From: Planctomycetaceae bacterium
GTDB lineage: Bacteria > Planctomycetota > Planctomycetia > Planctomycetales > Planctomycetaceae
NCBI GenBank assembly: GCA_003445035.1
Contig: DLVV01000116.1
Coordinates: forward strand, 1-15,617
DNA: 15,617 nucleotides
Reading direction: 5' to 3'
In this document: positions 9,062 to 15,617 of the stretch, piece by piece
Layout: every line of letters begins with the position of its first letter
How positions within the stretch are numbered: position 1 is the first letter of the stretch
The notes under the pieces: model-generated
Seen by the model: the letters and a program-made list of their open reading frames with translations, nothing else
What the model was told of the DNA's origin: nothing
The model's database searches: none
Position numbers and translations under genes: made by a program

Positions 9062-10768
9062 TCACTTCTTCTGCAACTTGGCCCACTGGTCCCGCATCGT
9101 GACCGTGCGATTGAAAATCGGTGTCTCGGGGCGGCTGTCCTGGTCGACGCAGAAGTAACCCAGCCGCTCGAACTGGTAACGCTGCCCGTCGGTCGCTTCG
9201 CCAAGTGACCTCTCGAGACAACACTCTTGAAGCGTCTCCAGAGCGTTGGGATTGAGGTGCTGCATCCAGTCCTCGTCCCGGGCGATCACCGACGGATCCG
9301 GTTCACTGAACAGGTGGTCGTACAACCTCACCTCGGCTCGCACCGCATGCGCGGCCGAAACCCAGTGAATCGTCGACTTCACCTTGCGGCCATCGGGAGC
9401 CGATCCGCCGCGGGTCTCGGGATCGTAACTGCATCGCAGCTCGATCACCTCGCCGGATTCGTCCTTGATCACGTCGTTGCAGGTCACGAAGAACGCGTAA
9501 CGGAACCGAACCTCGCGACCCGGAGCCAACCGGAAAAACTTCTTCGGAGGATCCTCCATGAAGTCATCCCGCTCGATGTAGAGTTCTCGTGAAAACGGCA
9601 CGTTCCGCGTCCCGGCCGATTCGTCTTCGGGATTGTTGATCGCCTCCAGTTCCTCAACCTGTCCCTCGGGGAAGTTCTCGATCACCACCTTCAACGGCCG
9701 CAACACCGCCATCCGCCTCTCGGAGGTCCGGTTCAGGTCCTCACGCAGGCAGTGCTCGAGCAGCGCGATCTCGGTCACTCCGTCGAACTTGGTCACGCCG
9801 ATCCGATTGCAGAATGACCGGATCGCCTCGGGAGTGTACCCCCGCCGTCGCAGGCCGCGGATCGTCGGCATCCTGGGATCGTCCCAGCCGACGACCATCC
9901 CGTCGTTGACCATCTGCAACAGCCGCCGCTTGCTCATCAACGTATGGGTCAGGTTCAACCTCGCAAACTCGGTCTGCTCGGGGACGTAGATTCCCAGTTG
10001 CTCGATGTACCAGTCGTACAAGCGTCGGTTGTTTTCGAATTCGAGCGTGCAGATCGAATGCGTCACGCCCTCGATCGAATCGGACTGGCCGTGGGTGAAG
10101 TCGTACATCGGGTACAGACACCAGTCGTCACCCTGGCGGTAGTGATGAGCGTGGCGGATCCGGTACATGATCGGATCCCGCATGATCAGGTGAGGCGAGG
10201 CCATATCGATCCTGGCCCGCAACACGTGTTCGCCGTCAGCGAACTCGCCCGCACGCATCTTCTGGAACAGGTCGAGATTCTCCTCGACCGACCGATCTCG
10301 AAACGGGCTCTCAACTCCCACCTCGGCCGACGTCCCCCGGTTCCGACGGATCTCCTCGATCGACTGGCTGTCGACGTAAGCCTTGCCCGAGTTGATCAGT
10401 TGCACCGCCCACTCGTAGAGCTGTTCGAAGTAATCCGATGCGTAGCGGACATCGCCGTGCCATCCGAACCCCAACCAGGTGATGTCCTGCTGGATCGCCT
10501 CGACGAAATCAACGTCCTCCTTGGTGGGATCGGTGTCGTCCATCCTCAGATGGCAAACGCCTCCGTATTCCTCGGCAATCCCGAAGTTCAGACAGATTGA
10601 CTTGGCATGTCCGATGTGCAGAAACCCGTTGGGCTCCGGTGGAAACCGTGTCACAACGCGTTGATCGAACTTGCCCGATTCGTTGTCGGCCTCGACCTTC
10701 TGACGAACGAAATCCACCGAACCGCCTTCGCCCTGGTCGTCGGTCGGGTTCCCGGCCTGGTCATTCAT
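9062..10768 (-). CDS. glnS: Glutaminyl-tRNA synthetase
   Basis: A 568-aa class I synthetase, close to the 554 aa of E. coli GlnRS. It charges tRNA-Gln directly with glutamine in the cytoplasm. The nucleotide-binding HIGH motif is at 51-54 within [21 protein letters not shown] positions 43-63, the KMSKS-type motif is MSKR at 278-281, and the GlnRS-typical stretch [12 protein letters not shown] is at 74-85. The C-terminal half carries the beta-barrel anticodon-binding region. The ATG at 10768 overlaps the gltX stop as ATGA, with an AGGGAG Shine-Dalgarno 7 bases upstream inside gltX, so the two are probably translationally coupled. GlnRS is present in only some bacteria and is thought to derive from the eukaryotic enzyme; its presence implies that the Glu-tRNA-Gln amidotransferase route is not the only one for Gln-tRNA here. 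Confidence 0.97.
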
Positions 10769-12357
10769 TGTCCCGCTCCCTGGTCATCCTCGGGTGTCTC
10801 ACACAACTTCAGTGCCCGTTCGATTCTCCGCAGCACGCGCTCGCGCCCCAGCAACTCGAGGCCTTCAAACATCCCGATCCCGGCCGATTTTCCGGTGACG
10901 GCCACCCGGACCGGATGAATGATCTGTCCCAGCTTCAGTTCCTGGCGTTCAACCCACGACTTCATCAACTCCTCCAGCCCCGTCGCATCGAACGATTCGA
11001 CCGAGGCCAACTCGTCGCGGAACGCCGCCAACCAGCCCGCCACACCGTCCTTCCTCAAACGTTTTTTGACCGCCTTCGTATCGTAGACCAGTTCCGCGTC
11101 GTCGACGAAGAACTCGTCGTAGTCCAGCACATCGCTGTAGACTTTCAACCGCTCGCCCATCGCCTCCAGCAACGCCGCGACGAATCCCCGGGTCTCCGCC
11201 TCGGCGACGTCCTCGATCAGTCCGGCCCGCGAGAGGTAGTCCAGGCATCGTTCGAGCCGCTCGTCGGGACACGACTCGTTCATCCAGTGCCCCTGCAGGC
11301 TGACCAGCTTGTCGGGATCGAGTCCGGCCGGACTCTTGACGACCCGGTCCAGAGTGAACGCCCCCACGATCGTCTCGCGAGACATCACCTCGGTCTTGTC
11401 GTCCAGCGACCAGCCCAACCGCGACAGTGCATTGAAGACCGCCTCGGGACGATACCCCATCACCTGGTAGTACTCGACCATCACCGGGTCCGGCCGGTCC
11501 TCACCCCCGCGGCCAATCCGAGGCAGTACGCGGTCGGCGGCCTCGAACAACCGGCGAAACTGGGGATTGTTGCGATACTTGTCGAGCTTCCGCTTGCTGA
11601 GCTTTTCCTGGGTCCCCGGTGCGGCGACATAGGGCACGTGGGCGAAGATCGGCAACTCGTGACCGAGAGCCTGGTGGAGCAGGACCTGTACGGGCGTGTT
11701 GGAGAGGTGTTCTTCGGCACGGATCACGTGGGAAATCCGCATCGCGGCGTCGTCGACGACGGTGGCGAAGTTGTACAGCGGACTGCCGTCTCCTCGCTGA
11801 ATCACCGGATCGGGAATCAGGCCCGCATCCCATTCGACCCGTCCCCGTACCGCGTCCTCGATGACCACCGACTGATCACGGGGCACCTGGAAGCGGACGA
11901 CAAACGGTCGGCCCTCGGCCACGTAGGCTTCGACGGTCTCGGGATCGAGCTCCAGGGAACGGCGAGTCCCCAGAAACGGGACCTGCCGGGCCTCGGCCTC
12001 GGCCCGGGCCGACTGGACTTCCTCGGGAGTGTCGAAACAACGGTACACCCGGCCCTCGGAAAGCAACCGCTCGGCCGCTACCCGATACAGGTCGTCCCGC
12101 TGGCTCTGGAAATACGGCCCCAGGTCTCCCCCCACCTCGGGACCCTCGTCCCAGTCCAACTCGAGCCAACGGAAAGCGTCCAGGATCGGGGCCAGGGCCT
12201 CTTCGACGTTTCGTTGCCGATCGGTGTCGTCGATCCGCAATACGAACGTGCCACCGTGGTGACGGGCGAATAGCCAGTTGAACAGGGCCGTCCGCATCCC
12301 GCCAATATGCATGTAGCCGGTCGGACTGGGGGCAAAACGGGTGCGGATCGACGTCAT
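10765..12357 (-). CDS. gltX: Glutamyl-tRNA synthetase
   Basis: A 530-aa class I synthetase, slightly longer than most bacterial GluRS (about 470-500 aa). It attaches glutamate to tRNA-Glu. The ATP-site motif appears as [20 protein letters not shown] (8-27), and the second signature as KLSKR (252-256). The C-terminal region beyond about residue 340 is the helical anticodon-binding part. The Cys cluster that binds zinc in E. coli GluRS is not conserved here ([10 protein letters not shown] at 105-114, then FLGTRRS), as in several other bacterial GluRS. Because GlnRS is encoded directly downstream with an ATGA overlap, this GluRS is likely the discriminating type specific for tRNA-Glu; that is inference. 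The start at 12357 aligns with the family N-terminus. It lies 56 bases after the LigD-PE-like stop and may share its transcript. Confidence 0.97.
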
Positions 12358-12413: not shown

Positions 12414-12821
12414 TCAATCCGGCAGTCGTCGAAAGACCCAATGCGATTCTTCGGGAACCAGTTCGATCCGAGCATTCCAACGGGTCCCGTCGCAGGAGAT
12501 CACTCCACCGTGTCGGACCACCGCAGCCCCGACATCGGATTGGTAGCTCCCCGCGTCCCAACGTATGACCGTTCCGCGATCACCACCGACCGGACCCTCG
12601 TAGTCCAGGTAGACACGTCGATGGGCGGGAAGCGACTCGGCTCGCCACCGTGTCCCCTGCCCCGGATCGTCCAGGATCCGCCAGGTCGCCAGGGGACTCT
12701 CGTCGTCAAGCTCCAGCAGCAGGTCCCAGTGCAGGACCGGGTGGTCGTGAGTCAGGATCACGAAACGGAACACGGGCACCACGCAGTGGGAAGAGCGGCC
12801 GATGGAACACCATTTGCACAC
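12414..12821 (-). CDS. Stand-alone LigD 3'-phosphoesterase-like domain protein
   Basis: A protein of up to 135 aa resembling the 3'-phosphoesterase (PE) domain at the N-terminus of bacterial NHEJ ligase LigD. FVILTHDHPVLHWDLLLEL (20-38) corresponds to the PE motif normally ending HYDFRLE, and LPAHRRVYLDYEGPV (64-78) plus GTVIRWDAGSY (83-93) match the later conserved strands. By spacing, His25, His31, Asp33, His67 and Tyr71 correspond to Pseudomonas LigD His42, His48, Asp50, His84 and Tyr88, while Arg52 is replaced by Leu35. No polymerase or ligase domain is attached, and no Ku gene is in view. The start is uncertain: the GTG at 12821 has a purine tract directly against it, and the GTG codons at 12782 or 12773 would better fit the domain edge. 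Activity is unproven; it could be a divergent nucleic-acid end-processing protein. Confidence 0.72.
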   Translation of the reverse strand: MCKWCSIGRSSHCVVPVFRFVILTHDHPVLHWDLLLELDDESPLATWRILDDPGQGTRWRAESLPAHRRVYLDYEGPVGGDRGTVIRWDAGSYQSDVGAAVVRHGGVISCDGTRWNARIELVPEESHWVFRRLPD

Positions 12822-12899: not shown

Positions 12900-14309
12900 A
12901 TGACTCCTCGCGAAGTCCTCGCCCTGTGCCGAGAACGAGAAATCCGGGCCGTCGACCTGCGGTTCATGGACTTTCCCGGGACGCAGAAGCACTTCACGAT
13001 CCCCGTCGAGACGCTGACCGAAGCGTCTTTCGAGGACGGGCTGGGGATCAGTGGGTCAAGCCTGCAGGGATGGCAGGCGATCAACGAAAGCGACATCCTG
13101 GTCGTTCCCCAGCCGGAAACCGCATTCGTCGACCCTTACCGGGCCGGCACCCTGGCGATTTTGGCCAATATCCAGGACCCGATCACCCGCGAGGACTATG
13201 CCAAGGATCCGCGCAATGTTGCCCGAAAAGCGGCACATTACCTCCAATCACTTGGCCTGGCTGACGAAGCTCGAGTGGGGCCGCGGATCGATTTTTTCGT
13301 CTTCGACGGGATCGGGTTCGGCCAGAACGAACAGGAAGCGTTCTACCGGATCGAGAGTCGTGAGGGCCAGTGGCGTGGACGCGACGACCTGCCCGGAACC
13401 GGCACCACCGGGATCCGGCACCGCCAGGGATACCTGGCCGTCCCGCCGACCGATACGCTGCAGGAACTCCGCAACGAGATCCTGCAATCGCTGACCGAGT
13501 GCGGCGTCGCCGTCAGCGGCCACCACCACGGGGTGGCCTCGGCCGGACAGTGCAAGTTTGATCTCGCCCCCGAACCACTGGTCACCGCAGCCGATCACCT
13601 GGTCCGGACCCGCTACCTGGTTCGGAACGCCGCCGCCGTGGCGGGCCAGACGGCCACCTTCATGCCCAAGCCATTGTGGAACGACAACGGCTCCGGACTC
13701 CACCTCAACCTCTCACTCTGGAAGGACGGCGAACCCCTGTTCGCCGGCTCCGGCTACGGGGGACTCTCGCAAACGGCGATGCACGCGATGGGCGGCATCC
13801 TGGCACACGCCCCGGCGCTGTCGGCTTTCTGCTGCCCGACCACCAACAGCTACAAACGACTGGTTGCCGGCTTCGACGCCCCCGTCAACCTCACCTACAG
13901 CTACCGCAACCGCTCGGCGGCAATCCGCATTCCCGTTCACGCCGTGCGGCCCGAGGACAAGCGGTTCGAGTTCCGCTGTCCCGACTCATCGGCCAACGCC
14001 TACCTGGCTCCCGCCGCCCTGCTGATGGCCGCCCTGGACGGCATCCAGAACCAGATCGACCCCGGCCCCCCGCTCGACAAGGATCTCTACGACCTTCAGC
14101 CCGAGGAACTGGGCGAGGTGCCCCGGTTGCCGGGATCACTGACCGAGGCACTGGCGGCGCTGAGAGACGACCACGAGTTCCTGCTGCGGGGCGACGTCTT
14201 CACCGAAGACGTGATCGACACCTGGACGTGGTACAAGACCGAACACGAAATCGACGCGATCCGGCAGCGGCCGCACCCGTTCGAATTCTCACTCTACTAC
14301 GACGTCTAG
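12900..14309 (+). CDS. Type I glutamine synthetase-family protein (GlnA-like) with altered active site
   Basis: A 469-aa protein, the length of E. coli GlnA, and alignable from end to end by eye. Conserved blocks include GWQAINESDI, the HHH run with AGQ (210-221 region), TATFMPKPLWNDNGSGLH, PTTNSYKRLV, RNRSAAIRIP and the C-terminal HPFEFSLYYDV. Tyr397 in DLYDLQPEE matches the adenylylation tyrosine. Normal GS joins glutamate and ammonia using ATP and two metal ions. Here most acidic ligands are changed (E. coli position to residue here): Asp50 to Ser51, Glu129 to Arg129, Glu131 to Asp131, Glu212 to Gly211, Glu220 to Lys219, His271 to Asn270, Glu327 to Asp326. His269, Glu357, Arg321 and Arg359 are kept as His268, Glu357, Arg320 and Arg359. 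It is therefore probably not an ordinary GS: either a pseudoenzyme or a ligase for another substrate. The ATG at 12900 gives the family N-terminus; the in-frame TTG at 12885 is less likely. Confidence 0.9.
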   Translation: MTPREVLALCREREIRAVDLRFMDFPGTQKHFTIPVETLTEASFEDGLGISGSSLQGWQAINESDILVVPQPETAFVDPYRAGTLAILANIQDPITREDYAKDPRNVARKAAHYLQSLGLADEARVGPRIDFFVFDGIGFGQNEQEAFYRIESREGQWRGRDDLPGTGTTGIRHRQGYLAVPPTDTLQELRNEILQSLTECGVAVSGHHHGVASAGQCKFDLAPEPLVTAADHLVRTRYLVRNAAAVAGQTATFMPKPLWNDNGSGLHLNLSLWKDGEPLFAGSGYGGLSQTAMHAMGGILAHAPALSAFCCPTTNSYKRLVAGFDAPVNLTYSYRNRSAAIRIPVHAVRPEDKRFEFRCPDSSANAYLAPAALLMAALDGIQNQIDPGPPLDKDLYDLQPEELGEVPRLPGSLTEALAALRDDHEFLLRGDVFTEDVIDTWTWYKTEHEIDAIRQRPHPFEFSLYYDV

Positions 14310-14329: not shown

Positions 14330-15007
14330 CTACCTGGTCGTCTTCTTCTTCTTGGCCTTGGGCTTCACGACCCGCGCGGACTTGATGTAATCCATCCGGG
14401 GAAACTCGGCCTTCAGGTACGCGTTGCCTTCGCTCTGGATCACGCCCTGGTTGGCCTTGCCACCGTACTCGGCGTTGATCTTCGCGATCGCCGTCATCCC
14501 CTCGACCACTTTGCCGAACGGGGTGAATCCCATCTGGTCGAGAAACTTGTTGTCCTTGATGTTGATGAACAACTGGGTGGTCCGGGTGTTGGCTCCGGCC
14601 GTGGCAAAAGTCACCATCCCCTTCAGGTTGCTCTTGCCCGCCGCCGGATCATCCTTGAGATTCGCCAGCCGCCACTTCCCCTGCACCTTCGGATCCCCGT
14701 TGATGCCGAACTGGACCACGAAATTGGGGACGACGCGGAAGAACCGGCACTCGTCGTAGAAACCTCCGGTGACCGCCTCGTGGAACCGATCGGCCCCTCG
14801 CGGTGCCCACTTGCGGGTCACCTCGACAACGAAGTCGCCGCACGACGTCACGAACTTTACCCGGTAACTCTCGGGGCCTTTCGGCGGTGTCGGCTTGGGC
14901 GCCGCCACCTCCTTGGCACCTTTCGCGGCCGGCTTCTTCTCGTCAGCCGCTCCGACCAACACCGCAACCAGGACGGCTGCCGCCAGAACACTCGTGAACT
15001 TCGTCAT
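14330..15007 (-). CDS. Exported cyclophilin-type peptidyl-prolyl cis-trans isomerase
   Basis: A 225-aa protein with a signal peptide (hydrophobic core about 6-18), a Lys/Ala/Pro-rich linker to about residue 45, then a cyclophilin domain of about 160 residues. The catalytic block FFRVVPNFVVQFGINGDP retains the Arg, Phe and Gln that match human CypA Arg55, Phe60 and Gln63. The later strand NTRTTQLFINIKDNKFLD has Phe where CypA has Trp121. It is expected to speed proline isomerisation during folding outside the cytoplasm. The C-terminus ends in a basic tail (KPKAKKKKTTR), unusual for the family and absent from the neighbouring paralogue. The ATG at 15007 has GGAGGA 7 bases upstream and begins the signal peptide; the upstream in-frame extension overlaps the next gene and lacks these. 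The stop faces the GS-like stop with 20 bases between. Confidence 0.9.
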   Translation of the reverse strand: MTKFTSVLAAAVLVAVLVGAADEKKPAAKGAKEVAAPKPTPPKGPESYRVKFVTSCGDFVVEVTRKWAPRGADRFHEAVTGGFYDECRFFRVVPNFVVQFGINGDPKVQGKWRLANLKDDPAAGKSNLKGMVTFATAGANTRTTQLFINIKDNKFLDQMGFTPFGKVVEGMTAIAKINAEYGGKANQGVIQSEGNAYLKAEFPRMDYIKSARVVKPKAKKKKTTR

Positions 15008-15014
15008 GCCGATT

Positions 15015-15020
15015 TCCTCC
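15015..15020 (-). promoter_or_regulatory. Strong Shine-Dalgarno deciding the cyclophilin start
   Basis: On the minus strand GGAGGA precedes the ATG at 15007 by 7 bases (AATCGGC). It lies in the 22-base gap after the upstream paralogue and fixes the start at the signal peptide. Confidence 0.85.
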
Positions 15021-15029
15021 GGTTGGTTG

Positions 15030-15617
15030 TCAGTTCTGCGTCTTGTCGGCCTTGCCATCTTTGTCGGTCCCTTCGACCGTGGCCGTCTTGACGTAATCCA
15101 TGTTGGGAAATTCTTTCTCCAGGTACACGTTGCCCTGCTGCTCGATCAACGGCTGCTGGGGCCGCTCGCCGTACTCGGAGGTGATCTTGTCGACGGCTTC
15201 CATCCCGGACACGATCCGGGCGAAGGGCGAAAAGCCCATGCCGTCAAGCCGCGCGTTGTCCTTGAGACTGATGAACAGCTGGGATGTCCGGGTGTTGGGA
15301 CCCGAGGTGGCAAACGTCAGCGTGCCCCGCTTGTTGCTCTGCGTGACCGGATCGTCGGAGATCTTCTTGTCCCACTTCGAATGGACCGCCGGGTCACCGT
15401 TGATCCCGAACTGGACCACGAAGTTGGGCACCACGCGGAAGAACCGGCAACCGTCAAAGAAGCCGTCCTCGACCAGCTCGCGGAACCGTGCCGCTCCCAG
15501 GGGAGCCCACTCGGGAATCACCTCGATCACCACCTTCCCCTGTGATGTCTCCATCACCACCTGGAAACTCTCCGCCGAGTCCTGTTTCCCCGATGCGGCC
15601 TGTTTCCCCTGTGCGGC
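15030..15617 (-). CDS. Second cyclophilin-type peptidyl-prolyl isomerase, 5' truncated by the window
   Basis: The minus-strand frame is open to the right edge, giving 195 residues without a start. The first visible residues are an Ala/Gly/Lys/Gln-rich linker (AAQGKQAASGKQDSAESF), as in the adjacent paralogue, so a signal peptide probably lies just outside. The domain carries the same catalytic block FFRVVPNFVVQFGINGDP and a similar strand NTRTSQLFISLKDNARLDGMG. The GTG at 15560 (VVMETSQGK) is an internal codon of the first strand and not a real start. The C-terminus (KDGKADKTQN) is acidic/basic mixed and lacks the poly-Lys tail of its neighbour. Closeness in sequence and the 22-base gap indicate a tandem duplication transcribed together. 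Confidence 0.88.
   Translation of the reverse strand, partial: AAQGKQAASGKQDSAESFQVVMETSQGKVVIEVIPEWAPLGAARFRELVEDGFFDGCRFFRVVPNFVVQFGINGDPAVHSKWDKKISDDPVTQSNKRGTLTFATSGPNTRTSQLFISLKDNARLDGMGFSPFARIVSGMEAVDKITSEYGERPQQPLIEQQGNVYLEKEFPNMDYVKTATVEGTDKDGKADKTQN

Follow-up and report, generated by a model that had tools for sequence, protein, structure and literature searches.

The glutamine synthetase (GS) homologue GSI-A, encoded in the window analysed here (the whole 15,617-nucleotide stretch of Planctomycetaceae contig DLVV01000116.1), is probably a pseudoenzyme derived from the lineage's own GSI-beta that still binds ligands as a sensor of nitrogen status or as a scaffold. The loss of ordinary GS chemistry is well supported by the residue comparisons below, and we infer a regulatory role from what has been kept. 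GlnA ranks with the best-conserved enzymes known, and a marine survey reported that, with the exception of Y179, the active-site residues of GS are very well conserved (PMC1821046). If the interpretation is correct, a GlnA orthologue that has repeatedly lost its metals and yet remains selected and full length would separate GS signalling from catalysis.

The GSI-A frame extends from an ATG at 12900 to a stop codon ending at 14309 and is the only full-length GSI homologue in the window; a mechanical list of open reading frames begins it at TTG 12885, whereas homologues begin at ATG 12900. Membership of GSI is indicated by a score of 545.3 bits against the TIGR00653 (GlnA) profile (curated cut-off 429.15) and by an alignment to PDB 3ng0 that covers residues 2-468, i.e. 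the protein from end to end. The approximately 25-residue insert region, which aligns without loss to 3ng0 and 4xyc, and the presence of Y397 place the protein in GSI-beta. Scores against the type III glutamate-ammonia ligase model TIGR03105 (218 bits; cut-off 469.6) and the PuuA model NF045547 (195 bits; cut-off 650) fall far below threshold, and PDB 2j9i, which we take to be lengsin, the vertebrate lens GSI pseudoenzyme, matches at 29.1 bits over 204-438, arguing against close kinship. Automated annotation would be misled by such a gene, which despite its altered site scores as a glutamate-ammonia ligase far above the NCBIfam cut-off.

Substitutions were read against the GSI references 3ng0 and 4xyc (M. 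tuberculosis GlnA1). Site numbering and residue roles are assumed to follow E. coli/Salmonella GlnA, in which we take E131, E212 and E220 to be the ligands of metal n1, E129, H269 and E357 those of n2, D50 the ammonium site, E327 the flap residue, E207 a nucleotide-site residue, R321 and R359 the glutamate site, and Tyr397 the adenylylation-site position. The gene and its replaced and kept positions are:

12900..14309, plus strand: GSI-A, GSI-beta-type glutamine synthetase homologue with altered catalytic site, 469 aa
13050..13052, plus strand: D50S, ammonium-site position (by alignment)
13284..13286, plus strand: E129R, n2 metal ligand, Arg in 14/14 clade rows (by alignment)
13290..13292, plus strand: E131D, n1 ligand, private to the window's genome (by alignment)
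13515..13517, plus strand: E207S, presumed nucleotide-site equivalent (by alignment)
13530..13532, plus strand: E212G, n1 ligand (by alignment)
13554..13556, plus strand: E220K, n1 ligand (by alignment)
13701..13703, plus strand: His269 kept, n2 ligand (by alignment)
13707..13709, plus strand: H271N (by alignment)
13857..13859, plus strand: Arg321 kept, glutamate site, invariant in 164 GSI-A genes
13875..13877, plus strand: E327D, flap residue (by alignment)
13968..13976, plus strand: Glu357 (n2 ligand) and Arg359 (glutamate site) kept, invariant in 164 GSI-A genes
14088..14090, plus strand: Tyr397 kept, adenylylation-site position, invariant in 164 GSI-A genes

R339, R344 and G265 are also kept. 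Of the n1 and n2 ligands expected intact in a catalytic GS, four of six are changed in the window's genome, and the ammonium-site Asp and flap Glu expected of such an enzyme read S50 and D327. Compared with GSI-beta GlnA (TIGR00653; 3ng0, 4xyc), GSI-A shares full length, the insert region, Tyr397, the substrate-holding arginines, E357 and H269, but has replaced E129, E212, E220, D50, H271, E327 and E207, with E131 changed to Asp in the window's genome. A preliminary description of this DNA had reported D50S, E129R, E131D, E212G, E220K and E327D, each of which was confirmed against both references, while H271N and E207S are additional to it; its GGG and AAG codons are correct, although the coordinate range it gave for the HHH region is one base off. 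Its statement that most metal ligands are replaced applies to the window's genome (4/6) but not to most of the clade, in which just three of six are changed, and the Asp at 131 on which it drew is present here but private to this genome rather than a clade trait.

The altered clade comprises 14 distinct rows (the window, homologue clusters P0002-P0011, and genomes G002, G001 and G011), all of which have R129, G/A212, K/R/Q220, S/N50 and D/G327. N271 occurs in 13 of them and Glu131 likewise in 13 (all but the window), and position 220 is basic in 12. A search for orthologues with a shared signature had been proposed; R129, G/A212 and K/R/Q220 recur together in 14/14 clade rows. Beside the clade in the tree are stepwise relatives, first G016 and P0028 with K129 and D327 and next P0012 and P0013 with N50, K129, Q220, N271 and D327; because these extant relatives carry graded sets of the changes, the order in which residues were lost can be tested. 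Among the closest orthologues beyond the clade (~70% identity) most have intact sites, and all 22 scored sites are intact in 64 of the 149 family GSI-A genes read, so the concern that canonical GS of this lineage might simply carry the same changes is not borne out. In 84 intact rows (72 GSI-A, 10 second-GSI, 2 references), 147 positions reach a conservation of 97% or more; ten of them are changed in at least 10 of the 14 clade rows, and six of these ten are among the 22 scored active-site positions, which do not include E207. The active site is thus enriched for clade changes, with 6/22 compared to 4/125 of the other conserved positions (hypergeometric P 0.0008; genome G020 is entered twice in this count, as in the 195-row tree and the Fisher test below, and once in the 149-gene counts).

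Ligand loss recurs across the family. A GSI match at 1e-100 was obtained in 162 of 170 family genomes, a few of which have a second GSI only, and 149 GSI-A genes from 147 of the 162 were read, the others being partial, second-GSI only or lower-scoring; the lowest-scoring family genomes, outside the 147, may hold further altered copies. At least one of the six metal ligands is changed in 37 of the 149 genes (35 of the 147 genomes), at least two in 15 and at least three in 9, and the class-level sample has 4 changed among 15 GSI-A genes from 14 genomes. A 195-row FastTree tree needs 16 changes of state, and a tree of 48 rows made with IQ-TREE after removal of the scored active-site columns needs 7, at least 6 of them forced by well-supported branches, these being counts that cannot separate loss from regain. 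A single altered clade was rejected on the IQ-TREE tree (p-AU 2e-52), the group having been named after the first tree was seen. Across lineages E129 is replaced by A, D, R, K, Q or S, E212 by G, A or S, and E220 by Q, K, A, S, H or R, and there is zero variation at G265, R321, R339, R344, E357, R359 and Y397 in 164 GSI-A genes. The retention of pockets for glutamate, phosphate and nucleotide as opposed to the loss of metal and ammonium chemistry is the strongest clue to function.

Second-GSI genes, of which ten were read, show no change at any of the 22 sites; on the 195-row tree nine of the ten form one clade and L117 stands apart. Two GSI-A copies each were seen in G145 (L093, L172) and G157 (L111, L112), all four with a changed metal ligand, and both genomes may be mixed assemblies. 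In another family of the class, L136 (G053) and L133 (G051) have lost H269 (Pro, Asn) and read Ala or Tyr at N264, and the sole other GS-domain gene found in either genome has GSIII length.

The genomic neighbourhood bears on descent. Two adjoining genes, both named from sequence, serve as markers:

12414..12821, minus strand: LigD 3'-phosphoesterase-like ORF, divergent neighbour of GSI-A, marker of positional orthology
10765..12357, minus strand: gltX, conserved neighbour, dN/dS control

Both adjoin altered GSI-A and also the intact GSI-A of G005, G015 and G117; among loci with enough flank the LigD-like ORF is upstream in 12/52 and gltX in 7/52, altered and intact cases alike. Because the same neighbours lie beside altered and intact genes, GSI-A is taken to have descended vertically from the lineage's own GlnA. 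Also beside GSI-A, glnS-like and gltX-like genes overlap by four bases (window 9062-12357, minus strand); the altered clade retains glnS as a neighbour, which G005, G015 and G117 do not have at that position. Two overlapping peptidyl-prolyl isomerase-like genes (14330-15560, minus strand) lie tail to tail with GSI-A and are shared with G001, G002 and G011.

Pairwise dN/dS, calculated by the Nei-Gojobori method with our own script, is 0.068-0.151 for GSI-A (six pairs among G000, G002, G001 and G011), compared with 0.070-0.151 for gltX, 0.070-0.104 for glnS and 0.216-0.324 for the LigD-like neighbour, distant pairs being partly saturated at synonymous sites. The clade's GSI-A is under strong purifying selection, like neighbouring gltX. 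Catalytic residues have thus been lost with purifying selection retained, the combination that marks a GS pseudoenzyme, and as the gene is selected yet site-altered, with repeated separate losses in relatives, GSI-A probably does something other than glutamine synthesis. A dN/dS of ~2 for PPI1 against G011 was taken as a misaligned match and left unused, and codon bias, considered as a sign of high GSI-A expression, was not distinctive.

GSI-A could instead be a neofunctionalised enzyme that catalyses another reaction, in which the substrate would resemble glutamate or phosphate and Arg129 and Lys220 would stand in for the metal charge. This would account for the fixation of R129 in 14/14 clade rows, the basic residue at 220 in 12/14, the retention of every substrate-holding arginine and selection as strong as that on gltX; we nevertheless consider it unlikely, since other lineages place Ala, Ser, Asp, Gln, His or Gly at the same ligands and share no new motif, and neither an operon partner nor a new pathway was seen next to GSI-A. 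PuuA, the GlnT/type III ligase and the GlnA2/3/4-like ligases belong to the same catalytic-domain family and have changed substrate pockets, but GSI-A scores far below the PuuA and type III cut-offs, and the window's genome encodes PuuA-like and GlnT-type proteins in which most or all of the metal-ligand motifs are still present. The new chemistry raised in the preliminary description is retained as a rival, against which the lineage-specific substitutions look more like loss.

Whether glutamine can be made without GSI-A depends on the other GS genes. The window's genome has four genes with a GS catalytic domain: GSI-A, a GSII with complete motifs (430 bits, below the GlnII cut-off of 500), a type III/GlnT-type enzyme scoring over its cut-off, and a PuuA-like gene. 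A check for a canonical glnA alongside had been proposed; no second GSI-beta was found in this genome. GSII motifs are intact in all three genomes of the window's genus. Family totals are 68/170 genomes for GSII, 66/170 for GSIII and five for both, and a second GSI besides GSI-A is apparent from match counts in 42. In each of the single-contig genomes G068, G006, G047 and G053 there are precisely two GS-domain genes, of which one is an altered GSI-A and the other a GSII or GSIII, the GSIII call in G047 and G053 resting on frame length. A GSII, GSIII or second GSI is present in 136 of the 147 family genomes (end-of-contig pieces in G134, G111, G093 and G013 included), and those without one amount to 4/35 altered genomes (G011, G016, G029, G152) vs 7/112 unaltered. 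A Fisher test gave no association of ligand loss with possession of another GS class (P 0.20, with the trend in the opposite direction). Gain of GSII or GSIII as the trigger of ligand loss is not claimed for this reason. GSII and GSIII genes lie within ~2 kb on one contig in four genomes of genus g35 (G169:C1176, G175:C164, G173:C155, G036:C101).

These counts also bear on the possibility that GSI-A is still a working GS that tolerates its substitutions, which we regard as improbable. It is favoured by a family score well over the GlnA cut-off, by the absence of a statistical link between loss of ligands and possession of a further GS class, and by two genomes in which no GSII, GSIII or second GSI was detected: in G029 (99% complete) the altered GSI-A is the only GS gene detected, and in G011 (96% complete) it is accompanied by just GlnT- and PuuA-like genes, so that glutamine in these two, if the assemblies are complete, must come from the altered GSI-A or from GlnT. 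G016 and G152 have a completeness of 78-79%. For G029, however, a contig could plausibly be missing, because both its genus mates have GSII. The loss of E212, E220 and E129 moreover removes half of the metal ligands, in addition to D50 and E327, and the window's genus has intact GSII throughout (3/3).

GS active sites form between neighbouring subunits, and a dead subunit could therefore act in a mixed ring, co-assembling with and modulating another GS. The 42 family genomes with an apparent second GSI (match counts) would permit such an arrangement; it is very improbable for GSI-A, since the other three GS genes of the window's genome are GSII-, GlnT- and PuuA-like and none is GSI-beta, contrary to the earlier suggestion of a subunit mixing with a true GS, and closed genomes with altered GSI-A have just GSII or GSIII-length partners. 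A decaying pseudogene or assembly error, to which the private E131D might point, can hardly be reconciled with intact frames in 14/14 clade rows from separate assemblies and a clade dN/dS of 0.068-0.151, and the earlier judgement that an intact full-length frame is not decay stands.

We therefore favour a GSI pseudoenzyme, with the frame intact and under selection, and the metal-poor regulator envisaged in the preliminary description is still the best reading, against which stand the GS gene content of G029 and G011 and the missing association of ligand loss with another GS class. In the sequence of GSI-A, which descends vertically from the lineage's GSI-beta, the two sites for divalent metals are dismantled, as are the ammonium site and the flap residue, while the arginines for glutamate, phosphate and nucleotide binding, the full length of the GSI chain and Tyr397 are kept. 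With the metal and ammonium sites and the flap residue dismantled, GSI-A should not make glutamine, which, judging from motif completeness, would be made instead by GSII and perhaps also by the GlnT-type enzyme. The fold would still be a GSI oligomer in which glutamine, glutamate or nucleotide may be bound without turnover, with Arg129 and Lys220 filling the former metal-ion positions and possibly replacing their charge. Nitrogen status could be reported through protein contacts, in the manner of feedback-inhibited GS with GlnR in Gram-positive bacteria, and gated perhaps by GlnE at Tyr397. It is quite possible, though we hold this more tentatively, that planctomycetes have a recurrent class of GSI pseudoenzymes in which the GlnA orthologue repeatedly sheds its metals (for Arg/Lys here) and becomes a GlnE-modifiable sensor that binds Gln or Glu, synthesis being left to GSII or GSIII.

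Lengsin works in the way proposed for GSI-A, as a non-catalytic GSI descendant, and is described as a dodecameric, catalytically inactive GSI remnant (PMC2667176). It differs in being distant in sequence (29.1 bits), whereas GSI-A comes from bacteria, is orthologous to the GlnA of its own lineage and shows repeated loss; the lens role is inapplicable. Feedback-inhibited GS acting on GlnR/TnrA provides a model for GS signalling nitrogen status by protein contact (PMC9249791), but this Gram-positive GS remains catalytic and is a GSI-alpha. No earlier description of a planctomycete or other bacterial GSI pseudoenzyme was found among the open-licence papers listed, and what seems new here, beside lengsin as the known GSI pseudoenzyme, is a bacterial one that would have evolved repeatedly.

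GlnE was found in all 13 genomes searched, including eight whose GSI-A has altered metal ligands; PII was found in 12 of the 13. Both features expected of a GlnE-regulated GS, a genomic GlnE and a Tyr at 397, are present, and GlnE may modify GSI-A. No other GSI-beta was found in G000, G001, G002, G011 or G068, and GlnE's GSI target in these genomes, if any remains, is therefore the altered GSI-A; GlnE could also have another substrate. Tyr397 was dropped as proof of adenylylation, as GlnT- and PuuA-like proteins also have Tyr there and its conservation may for that reason be structural. No erosion of GlnE was seen alongside altered GSI-A, with SDIE or SDLE in the second domain of 12/12 GlnE proteins read, whether GSI-A is intact or altered. 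GlnE consists of two copies of the domain, which are split over contigs in G002, and the first half reads SDID or SDVD in all 11 proteins that include it. In the GlnE of this family, ~1240 aa long (L303 in G011, L298 in G000), the two nucleotidyltransferase halves are separated by an insert, which in G011 scores as an ACT domain.
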